Assembly: GCA_025201345.1 (NCBI GenBank)
Contig: JAIXMG010000005.1
Coordinates: 682,001-746,000 of the forward strand
DNA: 64,000 nt
Direction of reading: 5' to 3'
Source of the DNA: Thamnidium elegans
Lineage: Eukaryota; Mucoromycota; Mucoromycetes; Mucorales; Mucoraceae
A program made the position numbers and the translations under genes. A model generated the notes under the pieces. That model worked only from the letters and a program-made list of their open reading frames with translations. It was not told the origin of the DNA and ran no database searches. Shown here piece by piece: positions 54,434-54,682 of the stretch; position 1 is the first letter of the stretch, and the number at the start of each line of letters is the position of its first letter.

Positions 54434-54682
54434 AAAAAAAAAGGAAAAAAAAAACAGGGAAAAGCGTAGTTTGTAATTTTTTTTTCCTGTTTTTTTTCTT
54501 TTGTGAGTCTGTTATAATACTTACAACTAAATGATTCCAATAGTAACAATTATAATAATAATAGAAGATAATATAGTTAGTAAAACATCCAAATAAACAA
54601 AGCACTCATCCATCTACAAAACTTGTTGTTGGATGGGATGATGCCATTTAAACTTTTGTATTGAAACCAATATTTTACCCAT
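51835..54682 (-). CDS. EFT2: Elongation factor 2 (diphthamide-containing translocase)
   Basis: The main exon (54363-51835) encodes nearly all of EF2, from NFTIEEIRTLMDK to DKYYDKL. Seen are the G1 motif AHVDHGKSTL, effector region DEQERGITIKS, DSPGHVDF, NKMDR, domain IV with the diphthamide loop DAIHRGGGQIIPTCRR, and PGNPTEPG near the end. The conserved N-terminal Met-Val is not in this exon. It can be rebuilt only from ATGG at 54682-54679, followed by a 152-nt intron (54678-54527), a 2-nt piece TT (54526-54525) and a 161-nt intron (54524-54364). The total is 844 residues, close to yeast (842). The ATG has an AAAC-GAAA leader. Codon use is strongly biased compared with neighbours, as expected of a highly expressed gene. 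Confidence 0.95.

Follow-up and report, generated by a model that had tools for sequence, protein, structure and literature searches.

A predicted two-nucleotide coding exon in the EF2 gene of Thamnidium elegans

Ultra-short exons in described systems and in EF2

Exons of a single nucleotide are known from plants, in the genes APC11 and VPS55 (PMC4674806, PMC8831610), and for the exon of APC11 the authors suggest that intron definition and recursive splicing are combined (PMC4674806). A plant database of microexons of 1–15 nt (PMC12409088) may contain cases of 2 nt as well. Recursive splice sites, in which an acceptor adjoins a donor that comes into use once the first splice has been made, are described for Drosophila and vertebrates (cited in PMC4674806 and PMC13149111; see also PMC6224609). 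In fungi, stwintrons comprise two U2 introns which are removed consecutively, with one intron interrupting a splice signal of the other, and they are prone to wrong automatic annotation (PMC5639578); stwintrons of the [D1,2] type are known from Hypoxylaceae, Xylariaceae and Aspergillus. Very short coding exons have also been described for fungi, in P450 genes of Phanerochaete, where the shortest exon has 6 bp (PMC1184071), and in Xlr2 of Trichoderma (PMC11121469). A report of a 2-nt exon was not found in the literature searched, which covered few subscription journals and is weak evidence of absence; papers on EF2, Mucorales, microexons and recursive splicing contained nothing on this gene by title or opening lines of the abstract, and the accessible text of a Drosophila microexon paper (PMC8042270) held nothing on exons under 3 nt.

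In the window, i.e. the whole stretch of 64,000 nt that was analysed, the coding sequence of EF2 is very probably divided over three exons (4, 2 and 2529 nt), of which the second, TT, supplies the last two bases of codon 2 (GTT, Val), and we file this exon with the known ultra-short exons, the microexons (internal, up to about 30 nt) of fewer than 3 nt. Like the exons of APC11 and VPS55, it lies internally between two ordinary introns, is shorter than a codon and breaks the frame; the APC11 exon is constitutive in Arabidopsis. It shares with the plant cases a conserved donor (GTRAGT in VPS55) and an annotation that misses the exon and loses N-terminal residues (PMC4674806, PMC8831610). Unlike the plant exons, which have 1 nt and are confirmed by RNA, it has 2 nt, is located in a translation factor gene of a fungus and is predicted only. 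The acceptor with its immediate donor resembles the recursive sites known from Drosophila and vertebrates, but these mostly subdivide introns of great length and leave either no base or an exon that is skipped, whereas the EF2 introns have 94–161 nt and two coding bases stay. As in stwintrons, two U2 introns of a fungal gene would be taken out one after the other, and annotation is prone to error, but both EF2 introns have their own signals and are separated by two exon bases. The short exons of the Phanerochaete P450 genes (2–10 amino acids) are three times longer or more, and the Xlr2 microexon, likewise a very short fungal coding exon, is a regulated switch. A 2-nt exon in a housekeeping gene would be a natural test of the minimal exon for the spliceosome, and the TT exon would likewise test how a fungus splices short introns sequentially (recursively).

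Gene layout in the window and in a second EF2 copy

The EF2 gene is located on the minus strand (54682–51835) and is arranged as ATGG, a 152-nt intron, TT, a 161-nt intron and AAT TTC ACT.... A sequence-only reading had placed ATGG at 54682–54679, and its coordinates proved exact on this strand. In exon 1, the coding part (54679–54682) comprises the Met codon and the first base of the Val codon behind an A-rich leader (AAAATGG). It is followed by intron 1 (54527–54678, 152 nt) with the donor GTAAAA, the branch site TACTAAC noticed before and the acceptor CATTTAG; the branch A is 50 nt before the last acceptor base, with no other AG in between. Exon 2 (54525–54526) contributes TT to the Val codon (G/TT) and is followed by intron 2 (54364–54524, 161 nt) with the donor GTAAGT, the branch site CTAAT, a long poly-T stretch and the acceptor GCTTAG, which ends 23 nt after the branch A. 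After this acceptor the sequence reads AATTTCACTATTGAAGAAATC and the frame stays open up to the stop at 51835; exon 3 (51835–54363, 2529 nt) thus encodes EF2 residues 3 to 844 plus the stop without interruption, with NFTIEEIR starting at 54363. The joined exons read MVNFTIEEIRTLMDK, and the predicted N-terminus is MVNFTIEEIR. Rfam was searched with 54300–54800 and gave 11 weak matches within 54397–54531 (best E 0.013), which were rejected because all were far below the gathering score.

The window protein was 93% identical to EF2 of Benjaminiella over the full query, and its N-terminus as predicted from the proposed splicing is MVNF. Among solved eEF2 chains, 7old_C and 4v6w_Az align residue 3 with residue 1 of the query (N), and yeast 1n0u_A aligns residue 4 with query residue 2, as expected for a big exon that lacks the two N-terminal residues; other solved chains align the query at residue 1 or 2, and their sequences were presumably deposited without the first residues. 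Since the three bases right before the N codon are TAG, the frame of this codon is closed upstream, and the large exon begins at the N codon as proposed. The nearest upstream ATGGT was found 1017 nt before the N codon, in agreement with the earlier statement that there is none for at least 600 bp.

Gene models were listed within 1000 nt upstream, with an unsplit ATG and one or two GT/GC–AG introns of at least 40 nt; one-intron models had a GT or GC donor and an in-frame exon of up to 90 nt. The window copy had 11 one-intron models and a second EF2 copy of the genome 12; none of them yielded Met-Val, and among the 7 and 8 that were compared between the copies none was common to both. Exactly one two-intron model per copy gave Met-Val, and it was the same one, with the 2-nt exon. 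The start at 54682 was the only one of 17 ATGs within 1000 nt from which Met-Val-Asn-Phe was obtained in the models tested. ATGG plus TT had been called the sole route to Met-Val, and this holds for one- and two-intron models within 1000 nt in either copy. When only models with ATGG as first exon and an exon 2 below 150 nt were allowed, six were open in the window copy and one in the second copy, and the 2-nt exon was the only model shared by both. These six models bear on the quite improbable alternative that EF2 starts elsewhere, either with a different or longer first coding exon or, behind 5'-untranslated introns, at the internal ATG of MDKVTNVRN: an exon 2 of 80 nt (MVLCLFG...NHLV) would, formally, be open in the window copy, but it is closed in the second copy and would swallow the TACTAAC site. 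Most of the relatives listed, moreover, keep NFT and the following residues, as do both copies despite a synonymous change there, and two residues precede N in solved chains such as 7old_C.

The second full-length EF2 (L010) is encoded on another contig (C1:2624189–2626714) of the genome, which comprises 34.1 Mb in 64 contigs, and is arranged alike: ATGG, 154 nt, TT, 94 nt and AAT. Intron 1 of this copy reads GTACGT...AACTAAC...CATTTAG with the branch A 61 nt from the acceptor, and intron 2 reads GTAAGT...CTAAT...TATAG with the branch A 20 nt from the acceptor. GT, CTAAY and AG are therefore present in both introns of both copies, and the same TT is found between AG and GTAAGT. The second copy also bears on the alternative that errors of sequencing or assembly hide an ordinary first exon in the window. 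The 27-T run in intron 2 is indeed a place where read errors are common, but the copy on the other contig has diverged flanks and no 27-T run and shows the same layout, which leaves an error of this kind with hardly any probability. Together with the model listing, it largely removes the doubts about another start or an assembly error raised by the sequence-only reading. The T runs of the window copy, one of them of 27, extend over 54404–54454, where the counterpart has an AT repeat.

The big exons of the two copies differ in 11 of 2529 bases (99.6% identity), which affect nine codons synonymously and two, codons 356 and 421, non-synonymously, whereas introns and flanks are largely diverged. 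Alignment of the intron 2 interiors (161 versus 94 nt) was matched or surpassed by 300 of 300 single-base shuffles, and the intron 1 interiors aligned only marginally better than shuffles, 17 of 300 of which equalled or surpassed them. Despite this divergence, the two copies agree letter for letter in ATGGGTA, in the CTAAC branch site and over an 18-nt block, CATTTAG-TT-GTAAGTATT, and AAAATGG is common to both. No string that the intron tracts have in common is longer than the 18-nt block; none of 300 dinucleotide-shuffle pairs reached this length (maximum 14), and the exact 18-mer occurs at exactly two places in the 34.1 Mb, both in EF2. Up to two mismatches gave 8 places versus 10 for the reversed control, and these near-matches therefore carry no weight. 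The 11-mer TAGTTGTAAGT alone is not rare in the genome (31 + 30 places versus 19 + 15 for the reversed control), and one of its 61 places is located about 90 nt before the second EF2 copy; a genome-wide search for AAAATGGGTA gave 247 places and was not used as evidence. The introns have evidently had time to diverge, but the junction block has stayed the same. The big exons were probably kept alike by gene conversion, and the two copies are therefore not fully independent cases.

Near-identical big exons with diverged introns and flanks are what is expected of gene conversion confined to exon 3. In intron 1, a small hairpin is present in both copies amid otherwise diverged sequence (54600–54650 in the window and the same place in L010), in which CATCC(C)ATC pairs with GATGGATG; the folding energies of intron 1 were not unusual (z −0.7 and −1.9).

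Splice signals and the order of splicing

Coding-like frames were joined across 293 kb of the genome, which gave 50 putative introns. A control with reversed branch motif gave 23 introns versus 50, and 14 versus 30 and 16 versus 37 at other settings; therefore, about half of the 50 may be false, and this set as well as a set of 28 are a rough guide only. A first set of 129 candidates obtained without branch filter was dropped as too noisy, and a single-motif control (1 versus 28) was excluded from the evidence since it was not matched to the two-motif query. The commonest donors among the 50 putative introns were GTAAGT and GTAAAA with seven each, so that the donors of the window EF2 are ordinary. 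Branch sites were CTAAT in 27 and CTAAC in 23, and the base before AG was most often T (26 of 50). Scored with a weak matrix from 28 introns, three of the four EF2 acceptors ranked in the lowest 15% (7, 11 and 14%) and the fourth reached 29%. These low ranks weigh against the proposed splicing, as does the branch site of intron 1, which is farther from its acceptor (50 and 61 nt in the two copies, in each case with no AG in between) than that of intron 2 (23 and 20 nt).

Both copies contain AG-TT-GTAAGT, i.e. an acceptor with an immediate donor, which as a motif is that of a recursive splice site. The three coding exons would be spliced to the junction ATGG-TT-AATTTC, giving ATGGTTAATTTC. The TT exon would be too short to carry acceptor and donor complexes at once: U1 bound to TT/GTAAGT would cover, by its footprint, the AG of intron 1. 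Since TT leaves no room for both complexes, the introns would be defined and removed one at a time. If intron 1 is removed first, ATGGTT would be joined to the intact GTAAGT donor, which then serves the second splice as in recursive splicing. Because its acceptor is transcribed first (5' to 3'), intron 1 is the more likely one to be removed first, although the reverse order keeps a considerable share of our estimate. The half-spliced form would be ATGGTT-GTAAGT... with intron 1 removed first and ...CATTTAG-TTAATTTC with intron 2 removed first, and a product in which the exon is skipped would read ATGGAATTTC. The comparison with a recursive splice site made in the sequence-only reading thus stands for the anatomy, since ATGGTT comes to lie directly before GTAAGT, and is left aside for the order, which we infer and in which intron 2 could go first; the anatomy fits, and the sequence itself does not decide the order.

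Skipping of TT gives ATGGAATTTCAC..., which encodes MEFHY-stop in the window copy and MEFHN-stop in the second copy, with a stop after five codons. Retention of intron 1 leads to a stop after 22 codons (window copy) or 4 codons (second copy), and retention of intron 2 to a stop after 42 or 8 codons, respectively. Since skipping or intron retention destroys the message, inclusion of TT must be near-constitutive for a functional EF2.

U1 prefers AG before the donor, and the bases before the second donor are TT, a further point against the 2-nt exon. In a stwintron of the [D1,2] type, internal intron 1 would split an external donor, and the cut would be made at ATG/GTTGTA, leaving Met-Asn-Phe-Thr without Val. 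The spliced product, ATGAATTTC, is in frame and encodes MNFTIEEIR, and among the best 120 of 7994 relatives two Mucorales models, from Radiomyces and Chlamydoabsidia, start with MNFT. We nevertheless consider this arrangement improbable, since GTTGTA scored at the 18th percentile of the 28 putative donors versus the 79th for GTAAGT three bases on, and since it leaves the conserved, intact GTAAGT after TT unexplained.

EF2 protein models of relatives

The relatives compared are the best 120 of 7994 scored EF2 proteins, all of them protein models and not transcripts, of which we take 35 by genus name to belong to Mucorales or Umbelopsidales. Among these 35, MVNF is the start of 12 models and an internal Met that of 15, and eight contain NFT behind another start; four internal-Met models were assigned by eye in these counts. 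Seven of the eight break exactly before N (M/NFT twice, MG/, MA/, MPFPLQF/, MDRSCKE/ and a partial model without start), and one, from Umbelopsis, breaks before V (MVDRLLLI/VNF). The other 85 models comprise 65 with MV-[NKR]-F, 10 with an internal Met by pattern and 10 classified as other, a group that includes five more internal-Met starts (MSVIAH); in the first 60 residues of these 85 models, NFT behind another start was not found.

The MV starts in 12 of 35 and 65 of 85 listed models argue against the removal of Val by a stwintron, and the internal-Met starts in 15 of 35 are the point in the relatives that favours a start of EF2 elsewhere. The breaks before N are in favour of the 2-nt exon and suggest that many Mucorales have an intron immediately in front of N3 and a first exon that is difficult to find. 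The 12 plain MVNF models, which could be spliced with or without a 2-nt exon, weigh against the 2-nt exon. A 2-nt exon may explain why EF2 gene models of the group often lose or invent an N-terminus, and the ATGG-TT-AATTTC junction would be an easy marker for checking annotation pipelines. A search for EF2 DNA of relatives gave none in viral contigs and one bacterial locus, at 35%, in genome contigs.

It is conceivable, though speculative, that the 2-nt exon is ancient and order-wide in EF2 of Mucorales: a G/TN intron in codon 2 would have come first, a second intron after codon 2 would have trapped two bases, and the arrangement would have been kept as an obligatory two-step splicing gate that ties the supply of EF2 to splicing capacity, in a housekeeping gene of high expression in which skipping of TT or retention of either intron leads to an early stop. 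If so, MVDRLLLI/VNF of Umbelopsis and the seven models broken before NFT would be annotation remnants.

Altogether, 23 of the 35 listed models of Mucorales and Umbelopsidales lack the MVNF start, likely a systematic annotation error. Outside Mucorales, a partial model from Massospora (P0046) begins with NGLDQIR, close to the same break point, and the break may extend beyond this order. Next to EF2, a transporter matches a protein of Mucor flavus with 99% identity across 95% of the query.
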